Source of the DNA: Yoonia sp. SS1-5
GTDB lineage: Bacteria; Pseudomonadota; Alphaproteobacteria; Rhodobacterales; Rhodobacteraceae
Length of the DNA: 64,000 nucleotides
Direction: 5' to 3'
NCBI RefSeq assembly: GCF_038443705.2
Contig: NZ_CP151767.2
Location: forward strand, 3,277,501 to 3,341,500
The position numbers and the translations under genes are program-made. This document shows, piece after piece, positions 43,393 through 60,737 of the stretch. Each line of letters starts with the position of its first letter. The first letter of the stretch is position 1. Below the pieces are notes generated by a model that did not search any database, had not been told where the DNA came from, and worked only from the letters and a program-made list of their open reading frames with translations.

Positions 43393-44286
43393 TCAGGTGA
43401 ATTTGCGAAAGAGTTTGGTTTGATCAAACATGTCTTCAAGCTCTTCAATGCGGGCCTTTGTCTGCGCCCAGTTGAGTGTCTGAACCGCCGAAATCATTGT
43501 TTCAAGCAGCAGCATCGTGGTGGTCGCTGAATCCCACGCGGATGGGACGACGATGCGATTGCTGAGGCAGACCGTCGCCATCTGATGGACAGGCGAGCGC
43601 CACTGGTCCGTCATCAGAACAATCTCTGCCCCGCGCTGATGCGCGAATTCTGCCAAACGCAGCGTGTTGTTTTCGTACCGCCGGACATCAAAAATGACAA
43701 AAACGTCGCCCTCCGCGGCATTCAGCAGATAGTGCGGCCATGTATTCGAGGTTGATTGCACATGGGTCAAATTTGGCCGGATCACCTGCATATGCAAAAA
43801 CAGATATTCCGCAAGCGTGTGCGTGATCCGTCCCCCAACGATATACAGATGCCGCTTTTCATCGGCGATCAAGGCGCAGGCGTCATCGAATGCTTGCGGG
43901 TCAATCTGGCCCAGCGTCAGCCGGATATTGTCAATGACGGCATCGGTGAACCGGTTCAGGATATGTTCGGACGGGGCCGCCTCTGCCCAGGTGTCGTGTT
44001 TGGCAATCGGCGTCTTGACCCGCGCCTTGAGCTCCTCGCGCAAGCCCGCCTGAAATTCCGGATACCCTTTATAGCCAAGCTTTTGCACCATCCGCGCCAC
44101 GGTCGGCACCGACACCCCTGCAGCTTTGGCCAATGCGGTCAGCGGGCCCAGACCTGAGGCCGGGTAGTTTTCAAGGATCGAGAGGGCCAGCTGGCGCTCT
44201 GCACGGGTAAGATCGTCCAGCATTTCGTGGATGCGGTCAGAGATCGTTTGTGCAGCCTCAGCCATCATCGCCTCCCATTTGTTCAA
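43393..44286 (-). CDS. MurR/RpiR-family transcriptional regulator
   Basis: This 297-residue protein has an N-terminal helix-turn-helix of the RpiR type (LTRAERQLALSILENYPASG, ALAKAAGVSVPTVARMVQKL) and a SIS domain (HLYIVGGRITHTLAEYLFLH, DVFVIFDVRRYENNTLRLAE, GAEIVLMTDQW). SIS domains usually bind phosphosugars, but RpiR members also control amino-acid and amine catabolism. It is divergent from the amidohydrolase/TRAP operon and is its probable regulator. An ATG six codons downstream (MMAEAAQ) is a possible alternative start. Confidence 0.92.
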   Translation of the reverse strand: MNKWEAMMAEAAQTISDRIHEMLDDLTRAERQLALSILENYPASGLGPLTALAKAAGVSVPTVARMVQKLGYKGYPEFQAGLREELKARVKTPIAKHDTWAEAAPSEHILNRFTDAVIDNIRLTLGQIDPQAFDDACALIADEKRHLYIVGGRITHTLAEYLFLHMQVIRPNLTHVQSTSNTWPHYLLNAAEGDVFVIFDVRRYENNTLRLAEFAHQRGAEIVLMTDQWRSPVHQMATVCLSNRIVVPSAWDSATTTMLLLETMISAVQTLNWAQTKARIEELEDMFDQTKLFRKFT

Positions 44287-44327: not shown

Positions 44328-44379
44328 ATTTTGTTGACAGCTGCGCCATATGGCAAGCAGTTTATTCGGAGGGGGCGCG

Positions 44380-45135
44380 ATGGATCACGGGGACTACGAT
44401 TCCAGCATTGTCGATATCTCTCGCCCGGCGGGTGGATCGCCGGTGGTTTTGATTTGCGAACATGCCAGCAATTTCATTCCCGCGGAGCTGAAAGATCTTG
44501 GGCTAAGTGCCGATGCCAAACGCAGCCATGTTGCCTGGGACCCCGGCGCATTGGGTGTGGCGCAGGCGATGTCAGACGGTCTGGATGCCACGCTGGTTGC
44601 CTCACGCGTGTCGCGCCTTGTCTATGATTGCAACCGCCCCCCAGACGCCGCCGACGCCATGCCCGCCCAAAGCGAGGCATTCGCCGTGCCGGGAAATAGG
44701 GGCCTGACGGACCGGCAGCGACAAGCCCGGGTGACCAGCTACTATACCCCCTTCCGCACAGCCCTCGAGGCCACGCTGGCACAGCGCATAGCGCCAATTT
44801 TGGTGACAATTCATAGCTTTACCCCGATCTATAATGGCCAAAGACGGGACGTCGAAATCGGGATATTGCACGATACGGACAGCCGGCTTGCGGATGTCAT
44901 GCTTGATGTCGCCGATACTTACGATGTGCAGCGCAACGCGCCCTATGGGCCGCAGGATGGTGTCACACACACATTGCGCCATCATGCGGTGCCCGGCGGG
45001 CATCTGAACGTCATGATCGAAATCCGCAACGACCTGATCGCGGATGACACCGCACAGGTTGCAATGGGCAAGACGCTGACATCTTGGCTTTTGCAGGCGC
45101 TAGACCGGCTGGAGGTCACCGCATGCAGGGCGTAA
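44380..45135 (+). CDS. N-formylglutamate amidohydrolase family protein
   Basis: This 251-residue protein of the FGase family has VVLICEHASNFIPAEL, AWDPGALGVA, RLVYDCNRPPDAADAMP, TIHSFTPIYNGQRRDVEIGI and HLNVMIEIRNDLI, which carry the conserved His, Glu, Asp and Arg residues. The classical reaction removes formate from N-formylglutamate in histidine breakdown, but no hut gene is near. In this operon cleavage of a gamma-glutamyl amide, or another N-acyl compound, is more likely (inference). GGAGGGGG at 44368-44375 sets the start. The TRAP small-subunit gene overlaps its end. Confidence 0.87.
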   Translation: MDHGDYDSSIVDISRPAGGSPVVLICEHASNFIPAELKDLGLSADAKRSHVAWDPGALGVAQAMSDGLDATLVASRVSRLVYDCNRPPDAADAMPAQSEAFAVPGNRGLTDRQRQARVTSYYTPFRTALEATLAQRIAPILVTIHSFTPIYNGQRRDVEIGILHDTDSRLADVMLDVADTYDVQRNAPYGPQDGVTHTLRHHAVPGGHLNVMIEIRNDLIADDTAQVAMGKTLTSWLLQALDRLEVTACRA

Positions 45136-45692
45136 TGCGCGGATATATTCGGGGTGTCGATGCGGTCAATTACCGGCTGGGCCGGGTGATGATGTACGGC
45201 ATCTTTGTCCTGATGGGCATCTTGTTGTGGTCGTCGATCAGCAAAACCTTCTTTCTGCCGACGCTCTGGACGCTGGAAATGGCCCAATTCGTGATGGTTG
45301 GCTACTACATCCTGGGCGGCCCATATTCATTGCAGTTGGGGTCAAATGTGCGCATGGACCTGCTCTATGGCAGTTGGTCGTTGCGCCGGAAGGCATGGTT
45401 TGACGCGATCACCGTGTTGTTCCTGATCTTCTATCTTTGCGTCCTGCTCTACGGGGCGGTCAGTTCGACGGCCTATTCGCTGGGATACTGGAAGGATGCG
45501 CCGTTCTCTTACCTGCTGGGTGTTGTGATCGGCACCGAAGAGGTCGGGCGGCTAGAGCAATCATCATCTGCATGGCGCCCGTATATGTGGCCTGTCAAAC
45601 TGGTGATGATTATCGGCTTCTTTCTGATGATCCTGCAATGTGTGTCGGAATTGTTCAAAGACATCCTGCGTCTCAAAGGTGCTGATATCTGA
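45123..45692 (+). CDS. TRAP transporter small membrane subunit (DctQ family)
   Basis: This 189-residue protein has four hydrophobic helices (MMYGIFVLMGILLWSSI, MAQFVMVGYYILGGPYSL, WFDAITVLFLIFYLCVLLYG, LVMIIGFFLMILQCVSELF) and the DctQ feature WTLEMAQF before helix 2. GGAGGTCACCGC precedes the ATG at 45123, inside the amidohydrolase gene end. The larger distance between helices 3 and 4 (GYWKDAPFSYLLGVVIGTEE) is unusual but not disruptive. It pairs with the following DctM subunit (TGATG). Confidence 0.9.
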   Translation: MQGVMRGYIRGVDAVNYRLGRVMMYGIFVLMGILLWSSISKTFFLPTLWTLEMAQFVMVGYYILGGPYSLQLGSNVRMDLLYGSWSLRRKAWFDAITVLFLIFYLCVLLYGAVSSTAYSLGYWKDAPFSYLLGVVIGTEEVGRLEQSSSAWRPYMWPVKLVMIIGFFLMILQCVSELFKDILRLKGADI

Positions 45693-47017
45693 TGCCTTAC
45701 GAGATGATCGCGACCCTCATGTTTTCGACCATGATGTTGATGCTGCTGACAGGGCAGCGGGTCTTTGGGGCGATTGGCTTTGTCGCCGTGGTTGCGGCCC
45801 TGCTGCTCTGGGGGGATCGGGGTGGATACGATATCGGGTTTGCCGCCGCGATGAAGCTGATGAAGTGGTATCCGCTGCTGACCCTGCCGATGTTCATTTT
45901 CATGGGCTATGTGTTAAGCGAATCCAAGATTGCGGATGATCTGTACCGGATGTTCCATGTCTGGATGGGCGGGCTACGTGGCGGGCTTGCGATTGGCACA
46001 ATCGGTCTGATGGTCCTGATTTCTGCAATGAATGGGTTAAGCGTTGCAGGCATGGCCATCGGGGCGACAATCGCACTGCCCGAGCTGCTGAAACGCGGCT
46101 ACGACAAACGCATGGTGACCGGGGTGATCCAGGCCGGATCATCGCTTGGCATTTTGGTGCCGCCCTCGGTCGTGCTTGTCCTTTACGCGATGATCGCGCG
46201 CCAACCCGTGGGGCAGCTATGGCTGGCCGGGATCGTGCCGGGGCTGATGATGGCCGCAATGTTTGTGGCCTATATCGCGATCCGCTGTCGGATGAACCCC
46301 GGCCTTGGGCCGGTGTTAAGCGCCCAGGATCGGGACATGCCCCGCGCCGAGAAACTGCGCCTGCTGCGGGCGGGCCTTCTGCCATTGGTTATCTTTGCGG
46401 TGATGATGGTGCCATTTGTGAATGGCTGGACGTCACTGGTCGAAAGTTCGGCCATTGGCGCACTGGCCGCGTTCGTCGCTGCGGTTCTCAAGGGCCGAAT
46501 GACCCGGGAAGTGTTCGAAAATTCGGTGCGAAACACGCTTGGCATCACATGCATGTTCATGTGGATCATCCTCGCCGCACTTGCCTTTGGGGCCGTGTTT
46601 GACGGGTTGGGTGCAGTCAAGGCAATAGAAAGCCTGTTTACAGAGCGCTTGAACCTGAGCCCGTGGATGATCCTTATCCTGATGCAGCTCAGCTTTATCC
46701 TGATGGGGACCTTTCTTGATGACACGGCGATGCTGGTCATCGTTGCCCCGCTTTATGTCCCACTTGTGGATGCGCTGGGGTTTGATCTGATCTGGTACGG
46801 GATCCTCTACACGATCACGACCCAGATCGCCTATATGACGCCGCCCTTTGGCTATAATCTGTTCCTGATGCGGGCCATGGCGCCGCCCGAAATATCGCTG
46901 CGTGACATTTACAGCTCCATTACGCCGTTTGTGCTTGTCATGGTATTTGCCCTGACACTGGTGATGGTCTTTCCGGGCCTTGCCACGTGGCTCCCCGATT
47001 TCGTCTACGGAAAATGA
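45692..47017 (+). CDS. TRAP transporter large membrane subunit (DctM family)
   Basis: This 441-residue protein has about twelve helices. Typical DctM stretches are LTLPMFIFMGYVLSESKIAD, MNGLSVAGMAIGATIALPEL, GVIQAGSSLGILVPPSVVLV and TTQIAYMTPPFGYNLFLMRA. It forms the Na+-coupled channel of the importer. The ATG at 45692 overlaps the small-subunit stop. The substrate is set by the binding protein encoded next. Confidence 0.95.
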   Translation: MPYEMIATLMFSTMMLMLLTGQRVFGAIGFVAVVAALLLWGDRGGYDIGFAAAMKLMKWYPLLTLPMFIFMGYVLSESKIADDLYRMFHVWMGGLRGGLAIGTIGLMVLISAMNGLSVAGMAIGATIALPELLKRGYDKRMVTGVIQAGSSLGILVPPSVVLVLYAMIARQPVGQLWLAGIVPGLMMAAMFVAYIAIRCRMNPGLGPVLSAQDRDMPRAEKLRLLRAGLLPLVIFAVMMVPFVNGWTSLVESSAIGALAAFVAAVLKGRMTREVFENSVRNTLGITCMFMWIILAALAFGAVFDGLGAVKAIESLFTERLNLSPWMILILMQLSFILMGTFLDDTAMLVIVAPLYVPLVDALGFDLIWYGILYTITTQIAYMTPPFGYNLFLMRAMAPPEISLRDIYSSITPFVLVMVFALTLVMVFPGLATWLPDFVYGK

Positions 47018-47063
47018 ACCATAAGCCGGGCCAACCGGCATCTTGCAACAAGGAGAAACGAAG

Positions 47064-48095
47064 ATGACGACAAGACGTAAGTTTATCAAAGGGGCGGCAC
47101 TGACAGCGCCGGCCGCATTGGCCGCGCCAGCCCTGGCGCAAAGCACAATTACATGGCGGATGCAGACCTATGCGGGGGCCGCATTGGCCGCCGAAGTGAT
47201 CGACCCCGCGATCAAGATGTTCAACGACATCGCCGGCGACCGGATGCAGATAGAGCTGTTCTACGCCGATCAGCTTGTCCCCACGGGCGAGCTTTTTCAG
47301 GCCATGCAGCGCGGCACGATTGATGCGGTGCAATCGGATGATGACAGCATGGCGTCACCGACCGAAGTCACTGTTTTCGGGGGGTATTTCCCATTCGGCT
47401 CGCGGTATTCGCTTGACGTGCCGGTGCTGTTCAACCGCTACGGCCTGAACGAAATCTGGGCCGAAGAATACGCAGCCGTTGGCGTCAAACATATCAGTGC
47501 CGGCGCGTGGGATCCCTGCCATTTTGCCACCAAGGATCCAATCCGCAGTCTTGCGGATCTGGAAGGCAAGCGGGTCTTCACGTTCCCGACAGCGGGTCGG
47601 TTCCTCAGCCAGTTTGGCGTCGTCCCGGTCAACCTGCCTTGGGAGGATATCGAGGTCGCGGTCCAGACCGGCGAGCTTGATGGTATCGCCTGGTCAGGCA
47701 TCACCGAAGACTACACCGTGGGTTGGGCAGACGTGACCAACTATTTCCTGACCAACAACATCTCGGGCGCGTGGATTGGACACTTCTTTGCCAATATGGA
47801 CCGCTGGAATGAGCTGCCCGAAGACTTGCAGAAGCTGTTCCAAGTCTGCTGCGAACAGTCGCACTACTACCGCCAGCATTGGTATTGGGGTGGGGAGGCC
47901 GACTTGCGGGTCAACGGCACCAAGATGGAACTGACAACGATCCCGGATGAGGAATGGGCGCAGGTCGAAAACGCAGCCCAAGAATTCTGGGAAGAGATTG
48001 CCGCCGAAAGTGACACCAAGCGGCGCGTCGTGGACATCTTCAAAAAGTACAACGCCGATATGGTGAAGGCTGGACGGCCCTATCGTTACGGCTGA
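47064..48095 (+). CDS. TRAP transporter substrate-binding protein (DctP/TakP type), Tat-exported
   Basis: This 343-residue periplasmic protein begins MTTRRKFIKGAALTAPAALA, a twin-arginine signal. The mature part has the DctP features MQTYAGAALAAEVIDPAIKM, ELFQAMQRGTIDAVQSDDD and DLEGKRVFTFPTAGRFLSQF, with the conserved Arg that normally binds a carboxylate. AAGGAGA at 47050-47056 is the ribosome binding site. Several acidic and Trp residues (HWYWGGEADL) suggest a large or zwitterionic ligand, but this is not decisive. Confidence 0.92.
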   Translation: MTTRRKFIKGAALTAPAALAAPALAQSTITWRMQTYAGAALAAEVIDPAIKMFNDIAGDRMQIELFYADQLVPTGELFQAMQRGTIDAVQSDDDSMASPTEVTVFGGYFPFGSRYSLDVPVLFNRYGLNEIWAEEYAAVGVKHISAGAWDPCHFATKDPIRSLADLEGKRVFTFPTAGRFLSQFGVVPVNLPWEDIEVAVQTGELDGIAWSGITEDYTVGWADVTNYFLTNNISGAWIGHFFANMDRWNELPEDLQKLFQVCCEQSHYYRQHWYWGGEADLRVNGTKMELTTIPDEEWAQVENAAQEFWEEIAAESDTKRRVVDIFKKYNADMVKAGRPYRYG

Positions 48096-48150
48096 TACAT
48101 TGGCGGGGGCGGCCACGATCCGCCCCCGCCCTGCATGAAAGAGGATGACT

Positions 48151-49515
48151 ATGCCCGGAAATCTCAGCTTTGATGACCTGAAGGCCCGTGTCGCCGACGG
48201 CACGATCGACACCGTTCTGGCCTGCTTTCCCGACATGCAGGGGCGGCTGATGGGCAAACGGTTTCATGCCGTCAACTTTGTCGAGACATCGTTCAAGGAA
48301 ACCCATTGCTGCAATTACCTGCTGGCCACCGATCTGGAAATGGCAACACCCGATGGATATGCGGCCACGAGTTGGGAAAAGGGGTATGGCGACTATGTGA
48401 TGGCGCCTGATCTGACGACCATCCGCCTTTTGCCATGGCTGGAAGGGACAGCCATGGTGATCTGCGATATTCTGGATCACCACACACATGCACCGGTACC
48501 CCATGCACCCAGACAGGTTCTGAAAACCCAGATCGCCCGACTCAAGGCGCTGGGCTTTGATGCGATGATGGCGACCGAGCTTGAGTTCTTCCTCTTTGAG
48601 CAAAGCTTTGACGATATCCGCAAGGGGGGCTTTCGCGATCTGACCCCGATCAGCGGCTATAACGAGGATTATCACATCCTGCAGACCACGAAGGAAGAAG
48701 GCGTGATGCGCCCGATCCGCAATCATCTTTTTGGTGCTGGCCTGCCTGTCGAGAATTCCAAAGGCGAAGCCGAAACCGGTCAGGAAGAAATCAACATCCG
48801 CTACGCAGAGGCATTGGCCTGTGCGGACCACCACACGATTGCAAAAAACGCGATCAAGGAAATCGCATGGCAGCACGGATGTGCGGCCTCCTTCTTGCCA
48901 AAGTGGCACCATGACAAGGTGGGCAGTTCATCGCATGTGCATCAATCCCTTTGGACGGGTGAAACACCGGCCTTCTACGATCCCGAAGCTGATCTGGGCA
49001 TGTCGGAACTGATGAAAAACTATATGGCCGGGCTGATCGCCTACGCACCCGACTACACCTTTTTTCTGGCCCCCTACATCAACAGCTACAAACGCTTTGC
49101 CAAGGGTACCTTCGCGCCAACCAAAACCGTGTGGTCTGTGGACAATCGCACCGCCGGTTTCCGGCTTTGCGGCGATGGCACCAGCGGCGTGCGCGTTGAA
49201 TGCCGTATCGGTGGGTCGGATCTGAACCCCTATCTGGCGCAGGCCGCGATGCTGGCTGCCGGCATCAAGGGGATCGCGGACAAGATGGAACTGGCCCCGC
49301 CAACACGCGGCGACGTCTACGAAGATGCCAAGGCCCAAGACATCCCGCAAACCCTGCGCGCCGCCACCGAAACCCTGCGCAATTCGGCATTTCTGCGCGC
49401 CGCGATGGGCGATGATGTGATTGATCACTACACCCGCTGCGCCGAATGGGAACAGGAAGAATTTGACCGCGTGGTGACCGATTGGGAAATCGCCCGCGGG
49501 TTTGAAAGGGCATAG
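48151..49515 (+). CDS. Glutamine synthetase family ligase (gamma-glutamylamide/polyamine synthetase-like)
   Basis: This 454-residue protein is related to glutamine synthetase but closer to PuuA/IpuC-type gamma-glutamylamide synthetases: ATDLEMATPDGYAATSWEKG, MMATELEFFLFEQS, GEAETGQEEINIRYAEAL, KWHHDKVGSSSHVHQSLW and EC-RIGGSDLNPYLAQAA. Such enzymes use ATP to link glutamate to an amine other than ammonia. GAGG at 48141-48144 touches the ATG at 48145, so the next in-frame ATG at 48151 (MPGNLSFDDLKARV) is taken as the start. It is followed by the two dehydrogenases. Confidence 0.88.
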   Translation: MPGNLSFDDLKARVADGTIDTVLACFPDMQGRLMGKRFHAVNFVETSFKETHCCNYLLATDLEMATPDGYAATSWEKGYGDYVMAPDLTTIRLLPWLEGTAMVICDILDHHTHAPVPHAPRQVLKTQIARLKALGFDAMMATELEFFLFEQSFDDIRKGGFRDLTPISGYNEDYHILQTTKEEGVMRPIRNHLFGAGLPVENSKGEAETGQEEINIRYAEALACADHHTIAKNAIKEIAWQHGCAASFLPKWHHDKVGSSSHVHQSLWTGETPAFYDPEADLGMSELMKNYMAGLIAYAPDYTFFLAPYINSYKRFAKGTFAPTKTVWSVDNRTAGFRLCGDGTSGVRVECRIGGSDLNPYLAQAAMLAAGIKGIADKMELAPPTRGDVYEDAKAQDIPQTLRAATETLRNSAFLRAAMGDDVIDHYTRCAEWEQEEFDRVVTDWEIARGFERA

Positions 49516-49517
49516 AC

Positions 49518-50885
49518 ATGATCCGCTGTATCTCTCCGATTGACGGGTCGGTCTATGCCGAACGCCCCACGCTTTCGACCGACGACGCCACTGCTGCAGT
49601 GGCGCGGGCGCAAGCGGCCCAGGCCGCCTGGGCCGCCCGACCGCTGGCCGAACGGATCGCACTTGTGCAGGAAGGCGTGGCGGCGGTTGGTCAGATGAAT
49701 GATGCAATCGTCCCCGAACTGGCCCATCAGATGGGGCGTCCCATCCGCTATGGCGGCGAATTTGGCGGCTTTCACGAGCGCGCCAGTTATATGGCCCAGA
49801 TCGCCGAGGATGCTCTGGCCGATATCGTGGTCGAGGACAGCGCCGATTTTCGCCGCGTGATCAAGCGGGTTCCGCATGGTGTTGTTCTGGTGGTGGCCCC
49901 CTGGAACTATCCCTACATGACCGCGATCAACACCGTCGCCCCCGCCCTGATTGCGGGTAATTCTGTTATGCTGAAACATGCCAGCCAGACCCCATTGGTC
50001 GGCGAACGGATGGCGCAGGCATTCCACGACGCCGGCGTTCCCGAGGACGTCTTTATCAATGTGTTTCTGGATCATCAGACCACATCAGACCTGATCGCCG
50101 CCCGATCCTTTGGTTTTGTCAATTTCACAGGCTCCGTCGCCGGGGGGCAGGCCATTGCCGCCGCGGCCGCGGGCAGCTTTACCGGCGTTGGGCTCGAACT
50201 GGGGGGCAAGGATCCGGGCTATGTTTGCGATGACGCCGATCTGGACGCAGCCGCTGATACGCTGATTGACGGGGCGATGTTCAATTCCGGGCAATGCTGC
50301 TGCGGGATCGAACGGATTTATGTGGCTGAACGGCATTTTGATGCATTTGTCCAAAAGGCCGTCGGCATTGTGCAAAACTACAAGCTGGGCAACCCGCTGT
50401 ATCCCGAGACCACGCTTGGGCCCATGGCGCATAAACGATTTGCCGATGAAGTGCGCGCCCAGATCGCCGAGGCGACTGCGCAAGGCGCCAAGGCCCATAT
50501 CGCGACTTTTGCCGAAGATGATGGCGGGGCGTATCTGTCCCCGCAGATCCTGACCCATGTGACCCACGACATGCGCGTGATGCGCGATGAAAGCTTTGGC
50601 CCGGTTGTGGGCATCATGCCCGTGAAGGATGACGCCGAAGCGGTCCGGCTGATGAATGACAGCAATTTCGGTCTGACCGCATCGGTCTGGACACAGGACG
50701 TGACCCGTGCCGAAGCGATCGCGGATCAGATCGACACCGGAACGGTCTTTATGAACCGGGCAGATTACCTTGATCCGGGTCTGTGCTGGACCGGCTGCAA
50801 AGATACCGGTCGCGGCGGCGGCCTGTCTGTGATCGGCTATCACAACCTGACCCGCCCGAAATCCTACCATCTCAAGAAGGCCTGA
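49518..50885 (+). CDS. NAD(P)-dependent aldehyde dehydrogenase
   Basis: This 455-residue ALDH-superfamily enzyme has APWNYPYMTAINTVAPALIA, a Rossmann segment NFTGSVAGGQAIAAAA, the general-base Glu in LELGGKDPGYVCDD and the catalytic Cys in FNSGQCCCGIER. It is two bases behind the GS-like ligase and three bases before the alcohol dehydrogenase, so the three act in sequence. The proposed substrate is a gamma-glutamyl-masked aldehyde (inference). Confidence 0.93.
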   Translation: MIRCISPIDGSVYAERPTLSTDDATAAVARAQAAQAAWAARPLAERIALVQEGVAAVGQMNDAIVPELAHQMGRPIRYGGEFGGFHERASYMAQIAEDALADIVVEDSADFRRVIKRVPHGVVLVVAPWNYPYMTAINTVAPALIAGNSVMLKHASQTPLVGERMAQAFHDAGVPEDVFINVFLDHQTTSDLIAARSFGFVNFTGSVAGGQAIAAAAAGSFTGVGLELGGKDPGYVCDDADLDAAADTLIDGAMFNSGQCCCGIERIYVAERHFDAFVQKAVGIVQNYKLGNPLYPETTLGPMAHKRFADEVRAQIAEATAQGAKAHIATFAEDDGGAYLSPQILTHVTHDMRVMRDESFGPVVGIMPVKDDAEAVRLMNDSNFGLTASVWTQDVTRAEAIADQIDTGTVFMNRADYLDPGLCWTGCKDTGRGGGLSVIGYHNLTRPKSYHLKKA

Positions 50886-50888
50886 CAG

Positions 50889-52034
50889 ATGTCACTTACT
50901 GCAAATTGGTCCTACCCCACTGCCGTGCGTTTTGGCGCAGGGCGCATCGCCGAGATCGCCGATGCCTGCGCGGCGGCCGGCATCACCAAGCCGCTGCTGG
51001 TCACTGACAGGGGGCTGGCGGATATGCCGATTACAACGCGCACGCTTGATCTGTTAGAGGCTGCGGGCCTTGGCCGCGCGATCTTTGCAGATGTAGACCC
51101 GAACCCGAATGAAAAAAACGCCGCCGCCGGTGTGCAGGCCTTCAAGGACGGCGGACATGACGGGGTGGTTGCATTCGGGGGCGGCTCTGGTCTGGATCTG
51201 GGCAAGCTTGTGGCCTTTCTTGCGGGCCAGACCCGCCCGTTATGGGATTTTGAGGATATCGGCGATTGGTGGACCCGCGCGGATGCCGATGCCATTGCCC
51301 CTATCGTAGCCGTCCCCACAACTGCCGGAACAGGGTCAGAGGTCGGGCGCGCGTCGGTCATCACCAATTCCGAGACCGCAGAAAAGAAAATTATCTTTCA
51401 CCCCAAATTCCTGCCAAGCGTTGTCATCTGTGACCCCGAGCTGACGGTTGGCATGCCGCAATTCATCACCGCCGGAACCGGCCTTGATGCATTCGCACAT
51501 TGTGTCGAGGCGTTCTGCTCGCCCCACTACCACCCGATGTCGCAGGGGATGGCGCTGGAAGGGATGCGGTTGGTCAAAGACTACCTGCCGCGCGCTTATG
51601 CGGATGGCGCGGATATCGAGGCCCGCGCGCATATGATGTCAGCAGCGGCGATGGGGGCCACGGCCTTTCAAAAGGGGCTGGGCGCGATACATGCGCTGTC
51701 CCACCCCATTGGCGCGATGTATCATACGCATCACGGGACAACGAACGCAGTCTGCATGCCGGCAGTCCTGCAGTTCAACAAACCGGCCATCACAAAAGTA
51801 ATCGGGCAGGCGGCCGATTATCTGGGGATTGCAGGCGGTTTTGACGGGTTCTGCGCCTATGTTGATGAATTGAATGCCTCACTTGCAATTCCCAAAACCC
51901 TTGGCGGGCTGGGTGTGACCGATCCTGATATCGACCGGATTGTTGCAGGCGCGCTGAACGATCCCAGTACCGGCGGGAACCCCATAACCATGACGGCGGA
52001 CAACACACGCAAATTGTTACTTGCCTGTCTGTAG
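50889..52034 (+). CDS. Iron-containing (group III) alcohol dehydrogenase
   Basis: This 381-residue protein has the NAD-binding GGGSGLDLGKLVAFLAG and TTAGTGSEVGRASVIT. The metal ligands are Asp and His in GTGLDAFAHCVEAFCSP and two His in HALSHPIGAMYHTHHGTTNA, the classical Fe-ADH signature. It lies between the aldehyde dehydrogenase gene and the glycine riboswitch. An alcohol-to-aldehyde step ahead of the ALDH fits the operon order (inference). Confidence 0.94.
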   Translation: MSLTANWSYPTAVRFGAGRIAEIADACAAAGITKPLLVTDRGLADMPITTRTLDLLEAAGLGRAIFADVDPNPNEKNAAAGVQAFKDGGHDGVVAFGGGSGLDLGKLVAFLAGQTRPLWDFEDIGDWWTRADADAIAPIVAVPTTAGTGSEVGRASVITNSETAEKKIIFHPKFLPSVVICDPELTVGMPQFITAGTGLDAFAHCVEAFCSPHYHPMSQGMALEGMRLVKDYLPRAYADGADIEARAHMMSAAAMGATAFQKGLGAIHALSHPIGAMYHTHHGTTNAVCMPAVLQFNKPAITKVIGQAADYLGIAGGFDGFCAYVDELNASLAIPKTLGGLGVTDPDIDRIVAGALNDPSTGGNPITMTADNTRKLLLACL

Positions 52035-52059
52035 GCGTTTCCGATAGGAAACATCTCAA

Positions 52060-52216
52060 CGAGATATCGGGAGAACCAGACCACTGGTGCCGAAGGAGCA
52101 ACCGCCTCGGAAACTCTCAGGCTACAGGACCGATATCGGGAAACGACAACTCTGGAGAGTGGTGCCACATGCACCCGCCGAAGGGATAACGATCTCAGGC
52201 GCCCGGACAGAGGAGG
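52060..52216 (+). promoter_or_regulatory. Tandem glycine riboswitch
   Basis: Aptamer 1 has a P1 helix GATATCGG (52063-52070) / CCGATATC (52130-52137) and the core GGTGCCGAAGGAGCAACCGC followed by ACTCTCAGGC. Aptamer 2 has P1 CTCTG (52150-52154) / CAGAG (52208-52212) and the core CCGCCGAAGGGATAACGATC followed by TCAGGC. These are the hallmark sequences of the double-aptamer glycine riboswitch, normally an ON switch for glycine cleavage genes. A small hairpin GTTTCC/GGAAAC (52037-52052) precedes it. The expression platform should lie in 52217-52302, before gcvT. Confidence 0.96.
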
Positions 52217-52302
52217 CACTGGCGCGCAGGTCTGACCCTGCGCAAATGTGGTGCCGCTTGATTGATCTGAAATCTCGCTGGCTTGAAGAAAGCGAGGGCG
52301 CG

Positions 52303-53427
52303 ATGTCAGACCTCAAGACCACGCCACTGCATGCATTGCATCTGGCAAACGGGGCCAAGATGGTTCCTTTTGCCGGTTATGACATGCCGGTCCAGTATCC
52401 GCTGGGCGTGATGAAAGAACACCTTCATACCCGCGCCAAGGCCGGTCTTTTTGATGTAAGCCATATGGGCCAGGTGAGTGTGCGCGGCCCCCGTTATGCA
52501 GACGCCGCTCGCGGACTGGAAGCGCTTGTGCCTGTCGATATTCTGGGGCTTGCCGAAGGCAGGCAGCGCTATGGCTTTTTCACAAATGACGCAGGCGGGA
52601 TTTATGATGATCTGATGCTGGCCAATCGGGGGGACCACATTTTTGTGGTTGTGAATGCGGCCTGCAAAGCTGCTGACATTGCCCGAATGAAAGCGGCGCT
52701 GGAACCGGGGCTGACAGTGACCGAGATCGCCGATCGCGCATTGCTCGCGTTGCAGGGGCCAATGGCGCAGGATGTTCTGGCGGCACTGGATCCGCGGGCA
52801 GCGGCGATGACATTCATGGATGTCGCAACACTTGATTTGAACGGTGTGGCGGCCTGGGTGTCACGCTCGGGCTATACGGGTGAGGACGGGTACGAGATTT
52901 CGGTGCCTGCCGCGGCAGCCGAAGATATCGCAGGCGCGCTTCTGGCGCATCCGGATGTGGAACTGATCGGGTTGGGCGCGCGCGACTCGCTGCGGTTGGA
53001 AGCCGGGCTTTGTCTTTATGGTCACGATATTGATGCCGGCACATCCCCGGTTGAGGGGGCGCTGACATGGGCGATCCAAAAGGTGCGTCGCGCTGGTGGT
53101 GACCGGGCAGGGGGCTTTCCGGGGGCTGTGCGGATCCTTGAACAATTGGCCAATGGCGCAACGCGCAAGCGGGTCGGGTTGCTGCCGGAAGGCCGTGCGC
53201 CCATGCGCGCAGGCGTGCCCCTGTTTGCAGGCGCGGACGGGGGTGATCCGATTGGTGCCGTCACCTCGGGCGGCTTTGGCCCGACGGTCGGCGGACCGGT
53301 CGCGATGGGGTACGTCGCGGCGGATCACACGACAATCGGCCAGACCATCTATGGTGAATTGCGGGGCAAGCGCCAACCGCTGACGGTCACAAAGATGCCG
53401 TTCACGCCAGCCAATTTCAAAAGATAG
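52303..53427 (+). CDS. gcvT: Glycine cleavage system T protein (aminomethyltransferase)
   Basis: This 374-residue protein begins MSDLKTTPLHALHLANGAKM. Family motifs are MVPFAGYDMPVQYPLGVMKE, FDVSHMGQVSVRGP, SRSGYTGEDGYEISVP and LGARDSLRLEAGLCLYGHDI with the folate-binding Asp/Glu. It releases ammonia and passes methylene to tetrahydrofolate. The ATG at 52303 is the family start; a longer reading back to 52087 would translate the riboswitch. Confidence 0.96.
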   Translation: MSDLKTTPLHALHLANGAKMVPFAGYDMPVQYPLGVMKEHLHTRAKAGLFDVSHMGQVSVRGPRYADAARGLEALVPVDILGLAEGRQRYGFFTNDAGGIYDDLMLANRGDHIFVVVNAACKAADIARMKAALEPGLTVTEIADRALLALQGPMAQDVLAALDPRAAAMTFMDVATLDLNGVAAWVSRSGYTGEDGYEISVPAAAAEDIAGALLAHPDVELIGLGARDSLRLEAGLCLYGHDIDAGTSPVEGALTWAIQKVRRAGGDRAGGFPGAVRILEQLANGATRKRVGLLPEGRAPMRAGVPLFAGADGGDPIGAVTSGGFGPTVGGPVAMGYVAADHTTIGQTIYGELRGKRQPLTVTKMPFTPANFKR

Positions 53428-53439
53428 CAAGGGAGAGAC

Positions 53440-53802
53440 ATGATGAAATACACCGAAGAACATGAATGGCTGCGCGCCGAGGACGATGTTTATGTTGTTG
53501 GCATTACGGAACACGCGACAACGCAATTGGGCGATCTGGTCTTTGTCGAATTGCCCGAAGTTGGCGACACAGTTGTCAAAGATGACGAGATTGTCGTGAT
53601 CGAAAGCGTCAAGGCGGCCTCGGACATTCTGGCGCCGATTGATGGCGAAATTACCGAAGTGAATACCGCACTGGTTGATGACCCAAGCCTTGCCAATAGT
53701 GACGCCGTTGGCGCCGGCTGGTTCTTCAAGATCAGACCGTCCGACCCCGCGCAGCTTGACGCGATGATGGATGAAGCCGCCTATAACGCGATGATTGGCT
53801 AG
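53440..53802 (+). CDS. gcvH: Glycine cleavage system H protein
   Basis: This 120-residue lipoyl carrier begins [20 protein letters not shown]. The lipoylated Lys58 is in [12 protein letters not shown]. It shuttles the aminomethyl group between GcvP and GcvT. It is 12 bases behind gcvT and 12 bases before gcvP. Confidence 0.97.
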
Positions 53803-53814
53803 GAGACCGCAGCA

Positions 53815-56658
53815 ATGACCTTCACGCCGACTGACTATCTGCCCTATGATTTCGCCAATCGTCGCCATATCGGACCGTCACCTGCCGAAATGGACGCGAT
53901 GTTGCAGGTTGTCGGGGCAAAGGACCTGGATGCGCTGATTGACGACACCCTTCCGCCAAAAATCCGGCAGAAGGCGCCACTTGATTTCGGCAAGGCCAAG
54001 TCCGAACGGGAATTGCTGCATCATATGCGTGTCACCGCATCAAAAAACAGGGTGCTGACCTCTTTGATCGGGCAGGGCTATCATGGCACGGTCACGCCCC
54101 CGGCTATTCAACGGAATATCCTGGAAAACCCGGCCTGGTACACGGCCTATACGCCATATCAGCCCGAGATATCGCAGGGGCGCCTTGAGGCGCTGTTGAA
54201 CTACCAGACCATGATATCCGATCTGACGGGTTTGGATATCGCCAACGCCTCACTCCTCGATGAGGCGACCGCCTGCGCCGAGGCGATGACCATGGCGCAG
54301 CGGATCAGCAAATCCAAGCAGCCCGGCTTTTTCGTCGATGAAAATTGCCATCCGCAAAATATCGCGGTGATGCGGACACGGGCGCAACCGCTGGGGATCG
54401 AGATTGTTGTCGGCAATCCTGATACGCTGGATCCGACGCAGGTTTTCGGGGCGATTTTCCAGTATCCGGGAACGCATGGGCATATCCGCGACTTTACGCC
54501 CGAAATCGCAAAGCTACATGAGAATAAGGCGATCGGCGTTGTCTCGGCTGATCCGCTGTCATTGACCTTGTTGAAAGAACCCGGTGCCATGGGGGCCGAT
54601 ATCGCGGTGGGGACCACCCAACGCTTTGGCGTGCCGATTGGCTATGGTGGGCCACATGCGGCCTATATGGCGACCAAGGCCAGCTATGCGCGCAACATGC
54701 CCGGACGCATTGTGGGCGTTTCCGTCGACAGTCACGGCAACCGGGCTTACCGGCTGTCATTGCAAACGCGTGAACAACATATTCGCCGTGAAAAGGCGAC
54801 ATCGAATGTCTGTACCGCGCAGGCACTCTTGGCCGTTATGGCCGGGTTTTACGCGGTGTTTCATGGCCCCGAAGGCCTTAAGGCAATTGCCCAACGCATC
54901 CACCGCAAAACCGCCCGCCTTGCCGAAGGGCTAAAGCAGGCAGGTTTTGCGGTGCGTCCGGCCAGCTTTTTTGACACGATCACCGTTGATGTAGGCCCGC
55001 TGCAGGCAGCCGTGATCAAATCGGCGCTGGACGAGGGGATCAATCTGCGTGCTGTCGGGACGACCCAGGTTGGCATCACCCTTGATGAACGGACCCGCCC
55101 TGCCACAATTGAAGGCGTCTGGCGCGCCTTCGGGATTGACCGCAAGGACAAGGACTACACCCCGCATTACCAGATGCCAGAAAAGCTGATCCGGACAACC
55201 GATTTCCTGACCCATCCGGTCTTTCACATGAACCGGGCCGAAACAGAGATGATGCGTTACATGCGACGTCTGGCGGACAGGGATCTGGCACTGGATCGGG
55301 CGATGATACCGCTGGGATCCTGCACGATGAAGCTGAACGCGGCTGCCGAGATGATGCCGGTCAGCTGGCGCGAATTCTCGCAGTTGCATCCGTTCTGCCC
55401 CAAGGATCAGGCGGCGGGGTATACTGAAATGATTGATGATCTGTCCGCAAAGCTCTGTGACATCACAGGCTATGATGCGATTTCGATGCAGCCAAATTCG
55501 GGCGCACAAGGCGAATATGCAGGTCTGTTGACCATCGCAAGCTATCATCGCGCCAACGGGCAGGGCCATCGCAATATCTGCCTGATCCCGATGAGCGCGC
55601 ATGGCACAAATCCGGCCTCTGCCCAGATGGTGGGATGGAAGGTCGTGCCGGTCAAATCGGCCGAGAATGGCGATATTGATGTGGCGGATTACAAAGCCAA
55701 GGTTGCAGAACACAAAGATAACCTTGCCGGGTGCATGATCACCTATCCATCTACCCACGGGGTCTTCGAGGAAACCGTGATCGAGGTATGCAAGATCACC
55801 CATGCGGCGGGCGGGCAGGTCTATATCGACGGTGCGAATATGAATGCCATGGTCGGCCTGAGCCGCCCCGGTGATCTGGGCGGGGATGTCAGCCATCTGA
55901 ACCTGCACAAGACCTTTTGCATCCCGCATGGCGGGGGTGGTCCGGGTATGGGGCCGATTGGTGTCAAGGATCACCTGATCGCCCATTTGCCGGGCGATCC
56001 CAATGACGGCGAAGGTGCGGTCAGTGCGGCGCCTTACGGGTCCCCATCGCTGCTGCCGATCTCATGGGCATATTGCCTGATGATGGGTGGGGAGGGGCTG
56101 ACCCAGGCGACGCGGGTGGCGATCCTGAATGCCAACTATATTGCCAAACGCCTCGAAGGGGCGTTTGACGTTCTTTACAAGGGCCCTTCGGGCCGGGTGG
56201 CCCATGAATGTATCATTGATACCCGCCCCTTTGCTGACAGTGCGGGGGTCACCGTCGATGACATTGCAAAGCGTCTGTCTGATTGCGGTTTTCACGCGCC
56301 CACCATGTCTTGGCCGGTTGCAGGCACATTGATGATTGAACCCACCGAGTCCGAGACCAAGGCCGAACTCGACCGTTTTTGCGATGCGATGCTGGGGATC
56401 AGGGACGAGATCCGTGCGATTGAGGATGGCGCAATGGACCCGTTGAACAACCCGCTGAAGAACGCACCGCACACGATGGAAGACCTCGTCAAGGATTGGG
56501 ACCGTCCCTACACCCGGGAAACGGGGTGTTTTCCGCCCGGTGCCTTTCGGGTGGACAAATACTGGCCGCCGGTCAATCGCGTCGACAATGTCTGGGGCGA
56601 CCGCAACCTGACCTGCACATGCCCACCCATGACCGACTATGCCGAGGCCGCAGAATGA
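53815..56658 (+). CDS. gcvP: Glycine dehydrogenase (decarboxylating), single-chain P protein
   Basis: This 947-residue PLP enzyme decarboxylates glycine. The N-terminal half contains [34 protein letters not shown] and the C-terminal half carries [35 protein letters not shown] and the PLP-binding Lys699 in [19 protein letters not shown]. Single-chain length matches proteobacterial P proteins. It is the last gene of the riboswitch-controlled gcvTHP unit; no terminator was found behind it. Confidence 0.97.
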
Positions 56659-56790: not shown

Positions 56791-57852
56791 ATGAGACTAT
56801 CTATGGTTTCGTCAGTCGTCGTCGCAACAGTGATCGGCGCATCAACCGCGCAGGCCGAAACGCTGCGGCTGCTGACATGGGGCGGCTATGCGCCCGAAGA
56901 CGTGATTGCGATGTTCGAGGCCGAGACCGGCCATACCGTCGAGGTGACCACCTCCAACAACGAGGAAATGATCGCCAAGCTGCGTGCCACAAATGGGGGT
57001 GGCTTTGATCTTGCGCAGCCAAGTCAGGACCGGATCACAAGCGCCCAGGAAGAGTTCGGCATTTACAAGCCCATCGACATGTCCCGTGTGAATGCGGATT
57101 TGTTCATTCCGTCGATGTTGTCCGCAACGGCCGGGAACACCACCTATGACGGCGAGGTTTACGGCCTGCCGCATGTCTGGGGAACCAGTGGTCTGGTGGT
57201 GAACACCGCAATGGCTGGCGATGTGCAGGACTATGTCGATCTGTGCGATGCATCGGTTGCGGGCAAGGTGTCTTACCGCCTCAAGCGCCCGACTTTGATC
57301 GGGTTTGCCTATTCCATGGGCCTTGATCCTTTTGCCGCCTATGGCGACACCGACGCCTATCAGGGCATCCTTGACGCGGTTGAGACAAAGCTGACCGACT
57401 GCAAGCAGAACGTAAAGACCTATTGGGATGGCGGGGATGAGATCAAGAACCTGCTCCGCTCGGGCGAGGTTGTGGCCTCGATGGCCTGGGATACGGGCGG
57501 CTGGCAGCTGAACGCGGACAATCCCGATATCACGTTTGTCGCCCCCAAAGCCGGTGCATTGGGCTGGATCGACACGTTTGTGCTGCCTGCCCGCGGACGG
57601 GCTGATGATGCGGCTTATGACTGGATCAACTTTGTGATGCGTCCGGATGTTGCCGCGATGATCACCAATACTGCGGGCAACTTCACGGCGGCCGTTGATG
57701 GCGATGCAGGGGTCAGTGCTGATCTCAAGGCCCGTTATCAGCGCAGCTTTGATCAGACCGCGATTGATAACATCAAGTGGTACCCGCCCGTGCCTGCCGG
57801 GCTGGAAGCGCTGGAAGGCGCCACGCTCGACCGGATCAACGCGGCGAACTGA
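56791..57852 (+). CDS. ABC transporter periplasmic binding protein, spermidine/putrescine (PotD/F) type
   Basis: This 353-residue protein has a Sec signal (MRLSMVSSVVVATVIGASTA, cleaved before ETLRLLTW). Type II binding-protein features include LLTWGGYAPEDVIAMFEAET, YGLPHVWGTSGLVVNT and GALGWIDTFVLPARG. The acidic and aromatic residues expected for a polyamine-like cation are present in places but were not aligned. The upstream 130 bases contain a TTGACT box at 56721, a weak promoter candidate. A terminator-like hairpin separates it from the transporter genes. Confidence 0.9.
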   Translation: MRLSMVSSVVVATVIGASTAQAETLRLLTWGGYAPEDVIAMFEAETGHTVEVTTSNNEEMIAKLRATNGGGFDLAQPSQDRITSAQEEFGIYKPIDMSRVNADLFIPSMLSATAGNTTYDGEVYGLPHVWGTSGLVVNTAMAGDVQDYVDLCDASVAGKVSYRLKRPTLIGFAYSMGLDPFAAYGDTDAYQGILDAVETKLTDCKQNVKTYWDGGDEIKNLLRSGEVVASMAWDTGGWQLNADNPDITFVAPKAGALGWIDTFVLPARGRADDAAYDWINFVMRPDVAAMITNTAGNFTAAVDGDAGVSADLKARYQRSFDQTAIDNIKWYPPVPAGLEALEGATLDRINAAN

Positions 57853-57871
57853 ACCCGTCTAATCAATCGGC

Positions 57872-57898
57872 AAAAGGGCACCCTGCGGTGCCCTTTTT
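57872..57898 (+). terminator. Terminator/attenuator between the binding protein gene and the ABC genes
   Basis: Stem AAAAGGGCACC (57872-57882) / GGTGCCCTTTT (57887-57897), loop CTGC, followed by T. Partial termination here would give more binding protein than membrane components, as is common in ABC importer operons. Confidence 0.85.
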
Positions 57899-57918
57899 GA
57901 TCCTGCGAGGTTGCAGAT

Positions 57919-59016
57919 TTGGCAAGCGCCCATCCCGATCTGGTATGTCAGGACCTGACCAAGGATTTTGACGCGTTCCGCGCGGTTGATCATGTCAGTT
58001 TCGAGGTGCCGCAAGGGTCCTTCTTTTCCATCCTCGGCCCTTCGGGCTGCGGGAAGACAACATTGCTGCGGATGATTGCGGGGTTCCAGTCACCGACTGG
58101 TGGCGATCTGCGGATCAAAGGCAAGTCGATGATCGGGGTGCCGCCCAACAGGCGGCCGGTGTCGATGGTGTTTCAACATCTGGCGTTGTTTCCGACGATG
58201 AATATCGGGGATAATGTGGGCTTTGGGTTGCGGCAGCGCGGCCTTGCCAAGGCCGAGATCAAGACCCGCGTCGGCGAGGTTCTGGAACGGGTCGGCCTGC
58301 CCGGGGTGTCGGCCCGCCGGGTGGATCAGCTTTCAGGTGGCCAAAAGCAGCGGGTGGCCATCGCCCGGTGCATGGTGCTGGAACCTGATTTGCTGCTGCT
58401 GGATGAACCACTGGGCGCGCTTGACCTGAAGCTGCGAGAACACATGAAGGTCGAGTTGAAATCGCTTCAGGCCGCGTTCAACACAACCTTTGTCTACATC
58501 ACCCATGACCAGTCCGAAGCGCTGGTGATGAGCGACAATATCGCCGTGATGAACAAAGGCCGGTTCGAACAGATCGGCCCGCCACACGCGGTTTATCACG
58601 CACCTGACACGCCCTTTGTCGCGGGGTTCGTTGGCGAGGCGAACAAGATCAACGCGACCATCACCGCGATCAACGGCCAGATGATGACCCTTGCGACCGC
58701 CGGGGCCGAGGTCAAGGTGCAGCGGGCGGGTGCCGACCTTGCGATTGGCCAGGATGTGCAGGTCTTTCTGCGTCCCGAGGCGATTGAATTGCTTGCCGCC
58801 GATCCGGGCGATGCGCTGAATGTCTGCCGGGGTGTGGTGGATACAGTGCTGTTCAACGGGGCCAACAGCAGCGTGACCATACGCGATGATCGTGGTGGTT
58901 TGCTGAAAGTTGCGCTGCCGCAGACCGGCAGTTTCGCAAGCCTGCGCAAAGGTGACACCGTCTTCACCCGCTGGCAGCCGGATCAGGCCCGCTGCTATCC
59001 GGCGACGAAGGGGTAG
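57919..59016 (+). CDS. ABC importer ATPase, spermidine/putrescine (PotA) type
   Basis: This 365-residue ABC ATPase has Walker A GPSGCGKTT, Q-loop MVFQHLALFPTMNIGDNVGF, signature LSGGQKQRVAIARC, Walker B LLLLDEPLGALD, switch ITHDQSEAL and a C-terminal TOBE domain (FLRPEAIELLAADPGD...). The start is TTG at 57919 after GCGAGG; no earlier ATG is suitable. It energises the two permeases encoded next. Confidence 0.94.
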   Translation: MASAHPDLVCQDLTKDFDAFRAVDHVSFEVPQGSFFSILGPSGCGKTTLLRMIAGFQSPTGGDLRIKGKSMIGVPPNRRPVSMVFQHLALFPTMNIGDNVGFGLRQRGLAKAEIKTRVGEVLERVGLPGVSARRVDQLSGGQKQRVAIARCMVLEPDLLLLDEPLGALDLKLREHMKVELKSLQAAFNTTFVYITHDQSEALVMSDNIAVMNKGRFEQIGPPHAVYHAPDTPFVAGFVGEANKINATITAINGQMMTLATAGAEVKVQRAGADLAIGQDVQVFLRPEAIELLAADPGDALNVCRGVVDTVLFNGANSSVTIRDDRGGLLKVALPQTGSFASLRKGDTVFTRWQPDQARCYPATKG

Positions 59017-59019
59017 GCC

Positions 59020-59886
59020 ATGAACGCTGACGCCTCTCGTCTGGGGTTCTACCTATTGCTTGCGCCCATCCTTCTATGGCTGGTCGTGCTGATCATTCTG
59101 CCGCATATCGGCCTGTTTGTGGTGTCCATCAGCGAACGTGTCGGCCCGCGCGAGTACGAGACCGGCCTTGGGAACTACGCGGCCTTCTTTGGTGAACCAC
59201 TTTATTGGCGGACTTTTGCGCGCACGGCGATCATGTCGATCCTTGCGACAGCCCTGACGCTGATCCTCGGCTTTCCGATTGCCTATTACATCGCCAAGCT
59301 GACCCGGGGGCGGACCAAAACAACCTTGTTTTTGATGTGCATGATCCCGTTCTGGGTGTCCGAGCTGGTGCGCACATTCGGCTGGATGATCCTGTTGCGC
59401 GAAACAGGCGTGATCTCGAACCTCTTGCAATATCTCGGGCTGGTCACCGGCCCGGTTGAGATGCTGTATAATGACGCCGCCATCATGGTGGGGCTTGTCT
59501 ATACGTCGATCCTGTTCATGGTTGTGCCGCTGGTGACGACCCTGGACAGCCTTGACGACAGCCTGATCGAGGCGGGTTATGATCTGGGTGGCACAAGCAC
59601 GTCCATCATGCGCGAGATCGTGATCCCGCATGCAATGCCGGGGATCGTGTCGGGGTGCATCGTCGTCTTTATGCTGTCACTGGGGAACTACCTGACGCCG
59701 ATCCTGTTGGGGGGAAAGGACAGCCTGTGGTTCACAGGCATGATCTATACGCAATTCATCACCCGCTTTAATTGGGAACTGGGGTCGGCGTTCGGGTTTT
59801 TGTTGCTGGCGCTTTCGTCCTTGGTGGTTTTTGTGGGGCTTAAACTGTCCGGGCAGTCGCTGTCTGAAACGATGGGGCGCCGATGA
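59020..59886 (+). CDS. ABC importer permease, PotB type
   Basis: This 288-residue protein has six hydrophobic helices, starting FYLLLAPILLWLVVLIILPH. The EAA loop contacting the ATPase is DSLIEAGYDLGGTSTSIMRE followed by IVIPHAMPGI. It is four bases behind the ATPase gene and overlaps the second permease by ATGA. Confidence 0.93.
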   Translation: MNADASRLGFYLLLAPILLWLVVLIILPHIGLFVVSISERVGPREYETGLGNYAAFFGEPLYWRTFARTAIMSILATALTLILGFPIAYYIAKLTRGRTKTTLFLMCMIPFWVSELVRTFGWMILLRETGVISNLLQYLGLVTGPVEMLYNDAAIMVGLVYTSILFMVVPLVTTLDSLDDSLIEAGYDLGGTSTSIMREIVIPHAMPGIVSGCIVVFMLSLGNYLTPILLGGKDSLWFTGMIYTQFITRFNWELGSAFGFLLLALSSLVVFVGLKLSGQSLSETMGRR

Positions 59887-60737
59887 TCCCCACCGTCCCG
59901 CAGCCCGGCTTTGCCAAGTGGTGCTACCGCGCCTATGTGACGCTGTTCTTTGTCTATCTTGCGCTGCCATTGACGGTTGTTTGCGTTTTTGCCTTCAACA
60001 ACAGCGTTTTCCCGTCGCTTCCATGGGAAGGGTTCACGCTGGCGTGGTTTTTCGGAACCGAGGCACCGTTTATCGGCGTTTTTCAAGAGCGGGCGATCAT
60101 GCGGTCGATCGGGACATCCGCGTTTGTTGCCTTTTGGGTGTCGGGGTTTGCCGTGGCCGTCGGGACCTGCAACGCGTTCCTGTTTGTGCGCCATGATTTT
60201 CGGGGCAAGGCGGTGCTATATATGCTGATGCTGTTGCCGCTGATCATTCCGGGCGTGATCCTGGGCATTTCGATCTTGGTCTTTTCCAGCTCTGTTGCGA
60301 ACGCGCTGGAGGATGCGACTGACATGTGGTTCGACGGGCTGCGCCCCGGCCTGATCCTTGTTATTCTAGGGCAGTTTTCGTTCATCACGACCTTCGCCAC
60401 GCTGGTGATTTCGGCACGCCTGCAAAAGTTCGATCCAAGCCTCGAGGAAGCCGCATTGAACCTTGGTGCAAGCAAATGGGGGGCGATCCGTCAGATCACG
60501 TTGCCGTTTCTGCTGCCGGCGATTGTGGCCTCTGCGGTGGTGTCGGTCCTGATGAGTTTCGAGAATTTCAACACCACGTTAATGCTGGTGGGTTCGGATT
60601 CGCCGCTGACAATCACCATGTTCGATAAACTGAAACAAGGATCAACGCCGGTTTTGAATGCGGTCTCGCTTCTCTTGATCATTGTGTCTGCGGCACTTGG
60701 GCTTTTGTCGCTATTATTTCAAAACGCCCGGCGCTAA
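59883..60737 (+). CDS. ABC importer permease, PotC type
   Basis: This 284-residue permease has six helices. Its EAA loop is SLEEAALNLGASKWGAIRQI followed by TLPFLLPAI. It begins in the stop of the first permease. Its stop overlaps the convergent regulator gene by four bases. Confidence 0.93.
   Translation: MIPTVPQPGFAKWCYRAYVTLFFVYLALPLTVVCVFAFNNSVFPSLPWEGFTLAWFFGTEAPFIGVFQERAIMRSIGTSAFVAFWVSGFAVAVGTCNAFLFVRHDFRGKAVLYMLMLLPLIIPGVILGISILVFSSSVANALEDATDMWFDGLRPGLILVILGQFSFITTFATLVISARLQKFDPSLEEAALNLGASKWGAIRQITLPFLLPAIVASAVVSVLMSFENFNTTLMLVGSDSPLTITMFDKLKQGSTPVLNAVSLLLIIVSAALGLLSLLFQNARR

Follow-up and report, generated by a model that had tools for sequence, protein, structure and literature searches.

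An ethanolamine pathway involving Csal_0678 of Chromohalobacter salexigens was reportedly described by Vetting et al. in 2015, and is referred to in PMC10132767 and PMC4646407. Ethanolamine from membrane lipids is a marine source of both nitrogen and carbon, and Phaeobacter sp. MED193 carries an operon in which rising locus tags are assigned to RpiR, GGAH, EtoV, EtoW, EtoX, ETAGA, GAADDH and GETADH (PMC10132767; this and the other papers cited are represented here by excerpts of their text). GGAH stands for gamma-glutamylglycine amidohydrolase and ETAGA for ethanolamine gamma-glutamylase; on phosphoethanolamine, five of the proteins (GGAH, EtoX, ETAGA, GAADDH and GETADH) reach higher levels, and a Kd of 7.9 uM is given for the binding of ethanolamine by EtoX (PMC10132767). 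In Streptomyces, GlnA4 has been characterised as an ethanolamine ligase, and SCO1615, of the formylglutamate-amidohydrolase (FGase) family, has been proposed for the gamma-glutamylglycine step (PMC6529630). Here we analyse a stretch of 64,000 nucleotides from Yoonia sp. SS1-5 (G000:C2:3277501-3341500, hereafter the window; genome of 4.47 Mb on two contigs), whose nearest named relatives are Rhodobacteraceae assemblies and roseobacters. The segment from 44350 to 52034, together with a divergent RpiR gene, very probably constitutes an operon for ethanolamine import and gamma-glutamylation, of the EtoVWX type already published (eto), enzyme substrates being assigned after relatives, and it is directly followed by the glycine cleavage genes gcvTHP.

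Gene content and order compared with described systems

The run of open reading frames on the plus strand begins with an FGase-family hydrolase, likely a gamma-glutamylglycine amidohydrolase (GGAH; 44350 or 44380, both ATG, to 45135; PF05013, 151.4 bits; PDB 2odf, 257.3 bits). It continues with a tripartite ATP-independent periplasmic (TRAP) transporter, made up of the small permease DctQ (EtoV; about 45123 to 45692; PF04290), the large permease DctM (EtoW; 45692 to 47017; PF06808) and the solute-binding protein DctP (EtoX; 47043, TTG, or 47064, ATG, to 48095). Then come a glutamine synthetase (GS)-like ligase, likely a gamma-glutamylethanolamide synthetase (ETAGA; 48145 to 49515; PF00120; PDB 5dm3, 745.3 bits), an aldehyde dehydrogenase (ALDH) that would turn gamma-glutamyl aldehyde into gamma-glutamylglycine (GAADDH; 49518 to 50885; PF00171) and an Fe-type alcohol dehydrogenase (ADH) that would turn gamma-glutamylethanolamide into the aldehyde (GETADH; 50889 to 52034; PF00465 and PF25137), before a tandem glycine riboswitch and gcvTHP. 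All these frames match profiles of the expected families, which bears out the co-directional run with riboswitch and gcvTHP that a first-pass annotation of this DNA had described. Outside the range considered at that time, on the minus strand, lies the divergent gene of an RpiR-family regulator (43393 to 44286; HTH_6 and SIS domains, PF01418 and PF01380), the counterpart of RpiR MED193_10021.

The MED193 locus (L070) has the same genes in the same order and with the same strand pattern. Its proteins are 50% (RpiR), 53% (FGase family, at the GGAH position), 60% (DctQ), 70% (DctM), 85% (DctP), 74% (GS-like), 77% (ALDH) and 78% (ADH) identical to those of the window. By gene set and order, the window therefore carries an EtoVWX operon as listed in PMC10132767, with the difference that the MED193 stretch has no gcvTHP match downstream of the ADH gene. 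To place this likeness in a wider frame, we compared the best 80 of at least 586 confirmed eto loci, taken from named genomes. Sixty-eight of them reach far enough both ways for the order to be checked, and in 62 of these 68 the arrangement RpiR(-)-FGase-DctQ-DctM-DctP-GS-ALDH-ADH is kept, so that it is not due to chance; the same gene order in other genomes, which had been proposed as a check, is indeed found for eto. Six loci deviate, a gene being counted as missing if tblastn at 1e-15 gives no hit to it within 9 kb: by this measure L047 lacks RpiR, L053 both RpiR and FGase, L055 FGase as well as ALDH, L071 FGase, L074 ALDH and L079 ADH. In L055 and L074 another dehydrogenase may serve, or the route may differ.

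Two more distant systems are alike in part. The GlnA4 pathway of Streptomyces coelicolor (SCO1611-1615), likened here by its published description, also combines a GS-like ligase, two dehydrogenases and a proposed FGase-family gamma-glutamylglycine hydrolase, but is governed by the regulator EpuRI (PMC9397018) instead of an RpiR-type protein. Chromohalobacter salexigens, as described in the cited excerpts, shares a gamma-glutamylation route and an EtoX that lacks the usual Arg and binds ethanolamine, but belongs to another bacterial class.

Predicted uptake and breakdown of ethanolamine

Against PDB, the DctP protein of the window scores 638.7 bits with 4uab/4xf5 and 74.3 bits with the next match, and we take 4uab to be Csal_0678 of C. 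salexigens with ethanolamine. Csal_0678 has no equivalent of Arg-147 and binds ethanolamine, and the commonest substitute for that Arg in the wider family is Phe (PMC4646407). In the window protein a Phe (residue 179 counted from 47043) aligns with an Arg of 4yzz, another TRAP protein; on our reading of the alignment this Phe probably occupies the Arg-147 position. Phe stands at the carboxylate-Arg position in all 80 related loci, and EtoX of the window is a Csal_0678-related binding protein without the carboxylate Arg, as expected for an EtoVWX operon. The earlier worry that TRAP binding proteins usually prefer anions falls away because of this replacement.

The ligase is neither GlnA nor PuuA: both identities were rejected, since it scores 236.4 bits with the GlnA model TIGR00653 (cut-off 429.15) and 196.7 bits with the PuuA model NF045547 (cut-off 650); it also stays under the cut-off of the type III GS model. 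The housekeeping GlnA of this genome is encoded elsewhere (645.4 bits). Where that GlnA reads PGFEAP, the ligase of the window reads KGTFAP, so that Phe replaces the loop Glu, presumably the ammonium-site residue. A GS match was obtained in 78 of the 80 loci and in the remaining two it was absent; among these 78, the loop appears as GTFAPT or GSFAPT in 74, and a motif search did not find it in the other four. A search of this one genome for EutB gave no match (the E. coli control was positive); there is accordingly no canonical Eut system by this measure and no sign of an ammonia-lyase route.

The proposed mechanism would then run as follows. EtoVWX would import ethanolamine, which the GS-like ligase would join to glutamate at the expense of ATP; the Fe-type ADH and then the ALDH would convert the masked alcohol into gamma-glutamylglycine, which the FGase-family enzyme would split into glutamate and glycine. 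For each enzyme of Yoonia sp. SS1-5 we infer the substrate from relatives. This sequence of intermediates (ethanolamine, gamma-glutamylethanolamide, aldehyde, gamma-glutamylglycine, glutamate plus glycine) had already been guessed in the first-pass annotation, and the literature assigns it, step for step, to this very operon in the excerpts cited; the accompanying statement that Streptomyces GlnA4 carries out the first step with ethanolamine likewise agrees with PMC6529630. Another of its claims, that an FGase-family gamma-glutamyl hydrolase would be a novel step, has to be withdrawn: GGAH of MED193 (PMC10132767) and SCO1615 (PMC6529630) precede it, both hydrolase roles being assignments in the excerpts cited. 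A novel FGase role or a new pathway is therefore rejected, since pathway, operon and FGase-family step have all been published before.

We regard the ethanolamine reading as very likely because EtoX homology to 4uab/4xf5 is far above that to other PDB entries and the gene order equals that of MED193, with 50-85% identity per protein. It is further favoured by the Phe at the Arg site, a ligase distinct from housekeeping GlnA, the negative EutB search, and the induction and binding reported for MED193. Gene identity, order, conservation and residue changes come from our own comparison. Ethanolamine binding by EtoX, operon induction and the first step by Streptomyces GlnA4 are carried over from published relatives by analogy and would apply here to the extent that the likeness holds.

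Several observations weigh against this reading. In the family, 222 of 394 genomes encode EtoX-like proteins at E up to 1e-60, a threshold that may take in some paralogues. The FGase-family enzyme is the least conserved of the enzymes (43-63% identity to 74 relatives) and is without a match in L053, L055 and L071, three of the 68 loci covered in full, so another hydrolase can serve; likewise, no ALDH match lies between ligase and ADH in L055 and L074. The published systems themselves are described unevenly: the C. salexigens pathway is called demonstrated in PMC10132767 and predicted in silico in PMC6529630, and its steps are called proposed in PMC9397018, while the alcohol, aldehyde and hydrolase steps in the cited excerpts of these papers rest on annotation and induction.

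The adjoining glycine cleavage genes

Directly after the ADH gene, a tandem glycine riboswitch precedes gcvT. Aptamer 1 (52058 to 52142; RF00504, 62.8 bits) starts 24 bases after the ADH stop, and it alone was listed in the initial Rfam scan; aptamer 2 (about 52142 to 52220, G000:C2:3329642-3329720) reaches 46.3 bits, so that both exceed the gathering score of 32. The related tandem-type family RF03166 fits 52055 to 52214 with 63.4 bits, below its own gathering score of 110. The genes that follow on the plus strand are gcvT (52303 to 53427; NF010093, 561.2 bits, cut-off 459), gcvH (53440 to 53802; TIGR00527, 145.8 bits, cut-off 115.85; PF01597) and gcvP (53815 to 56658; TIGR00461, 1393.6 bits, cut-off 859.2). 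Because gcvP has a single match in the genome, these genes must meet the needs of general glycine cleavage too. Eleven further gcvT matches do not exceed 87 bits, compared with 828 for gcvT itself; a second gcv set dedicated to ethanolamine is rejected on both grounds. A further glycine aptamer (L091:7842-7936, G000:C2:2359841-2359935, minus strand; 63.2 bits) is located some 120 bases upstream of the gene for a D-amino acid dehydrogenase (L091:6480-7721, minus strand; NF009074, 647.7 bits, cut-off 494), which means that this genome senses glycine outside gcv as well.

A sigma-70 promoter scan found nothing; the box described here is known only from the comparison of leaders. We used 24 gcv leaders that are not adjacent to eto (L096, L097, L099, L100 and L104-L123; in the first four, the aptamer start was set by motif), having excluded L098, with the core word at the wrong place, and L103, with gcvT only 46% alike. 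In the 65 bases that precede aptamer 1, 15 of them contain TTGCC, 14 of these at -31 to -37; the word is missing from that stretch in nine, including L104, the leader of genome G338, which lies near eto but not behind the ADH gene. The controls were a single upstream stretch, with TTGCC in 1 of 24, and 2000 single-base shuffles, which gave 1.4 on average and 6 at most. In all five leaders adjacent to the ADH gene, the word is present at -32 to -37, within the final ADH codons. In the window, where the gene ends CTT GCC TGT CTG TAG (LACL-stop), the putative -35 box TTGCCT spans 52021 to 52026 on the plus strand, 37 bases before aptamer 1. From this we infer a gcv promoter: gcv seems to keep its own, overlapping the 3' end of the ADH gene. 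The locus thereby resembles other glycine riboswitch-gcvTHP arrangements of the family, which have glycine aptamers before gcvT and, in many cases, the same promoter-like box, but differs in standing directly after the eto ADH gene, with its -35 box inside that gene.

Such adjacency is rare. Sixty-nine loci extend 3 kb or more beyond the ADH gene, and in four of them (L001, L004, L011 and L028) gcvTHP follows directly. In a survey of 149 of the 222 EtoX-positive genomes, four had no gcvP match at 1e-200; of the remaining 145, two have eto and gcv within 6 kb (the window and G338) and 114 have them on different contigs. In G338 (L101, G338:C29:90000-107000), gcvTHP lies on the other side of eto, downstream of RpiR, and a single case of this type in about 145 genomes is near random placement, which by our estimate would give about 0.4 cases with a 12 kb target in 4 Mb. 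On a quick tree made without bootstrap (67 rows: the window and those 66 of the 80 loci in which five proteins each reach 90% or more of their full length), four label changes are required to place the five adjacent loci, at least three of them forced by well-supported branches. Adjacency clusters weakly, with as few changes in 48 of 500 shuffles.

Some traces may bear on the history of this neighbourhood. The word GGGAGAA[CT]C, expected about 0.001 times per stretch, occurs in 6 of 72 stretches after the ADH gene: in the four that have gcv, at a distance of 29-34 bases from the stop, and in L025 (27 bases) and L029 (26 bases). The latter two are sister rows without gcv; in them, 26-27 bases past the ADH stop, GGGAGAACC takes the place that the glycine aptamer has in intact loci. 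This hint suggests a decayed aptamer, although neither Rfam nor our own model R1 detected a remnant in these two loci. A PotD-like gene stands directly after the ADH gene in five loci (L018, L019, L040, L044 and L049) and after gcvP in L001 and the window; an earlier survey of the loci had counted PotD on either side of eto. In the window it is part of a polyamine-type ABC transporter (56791 to 60737; PotD/A/B/C-like, below equivalog cut-offs). One old gain of adjacency with repeated losses would fit the aptamer-like words and the PotD-like gene after ADH; several gains are also possible.

Alternative explanations and probable metabolic coupling

Two alternatives concern the substrates. GS-like ligases vary in substrate, and the assignment here comes from relatives, so one could think of another small amine or amino alcohol, such as propanolamine or a methylated ethanolamine; polyamine as well as ethanolamine ligases are named in PMC9397018. 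This is made very unlikely by EtoX, whose best PDB match is 4uab (taken to be Csal_0678) and which shares 85% identity with the MED193 protein for which ethanolamine binding was measured (PMC10132767). Even less credible is an FGase-family gene that hydrolyses N-formylglutamate in histidine breakdown and has come to lie here by accident. The gene does belong to the FGase Pfam family, but it scores 26.1 bits with the HutG model TIGR02017 (cut-off 278.75), so far below that a HutG identity was rejected; no gene anywhere in the genome exceeds this cut-off. Moreover, an FGase-family gene occupies this place in 65 of the 68 covered loci, and the MED193 counterpart is induced together with the operon (PMC10132767).

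The third alternative is that eto and gcv form one functional unit, in which read-through from the eto promoter into the riboswitch lets gcv be made once ethanolamine yields glycine. No terminator-like site was found on the plus strand between ADH and gcvT, so read-through is also possible, and the short distance from the ADH stop to aptamer 1, like the recurrence of the arrangement in five loci including the window with several changes forced on the tree, is in line with this idea. However, gcv is not beside eto in 65 of the 69 informative loci, nor in 143 of the 145 family genomes, and even in G294, a genome of the same genus, the two are on different contigs. The weak clustering on the tree, the retained gcv promoter box and the demands of general glycine metabolism on a single gcvP also speak against it, and we consider one unit unlikely. 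It is doubtful, if conceivable, that in one roseobacter lineage, where eto and gcvTHP would overlap at the DNA level through the -35 box in the ADH codons, read-through and riboswitch together make gcv a glycine-gated extension of eto; if true, ethanolamine would be taken through to CO2, ammonia and one-carbon units.

Returning to the EtoVWX-type operon as the preferred explanation, the downstream gcvTHP, which has a tandem glycine riboswitch and probably a promoter of its own, could burn the glycine formed while remaining a general gene set. The link from glycine to riboswitch and Gcv drawn in the first-pass annotation is chemically sensible, but it is not the conserved part, given the adjacency in 4 of 69 loci, the single gcvP and a leader that seems to keep its own promoter. 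Among the papers listed in our literature searches, there was no evident account of eto-gcv adjacency, and a term search of PMC10132767 returned no mention of gcv, glycine cleavage or riboswitch in the text covered. The unusual part of the window is gcvTHP next door, a local, lineage-bound neighbourhood. Given the rarity of adjacency and the promoter that the gcv leader seems to retain, the coupling of eto and gcv is probably metabolic and lineage-bound and not that of one dedicated operon. With the window, a further well-resolved example of the published ethanolamine uptake and breakdown operon is available, and one can see to what extent its glycine product is wired to glycine cleavage: by adjacency in a few loci, not in general.

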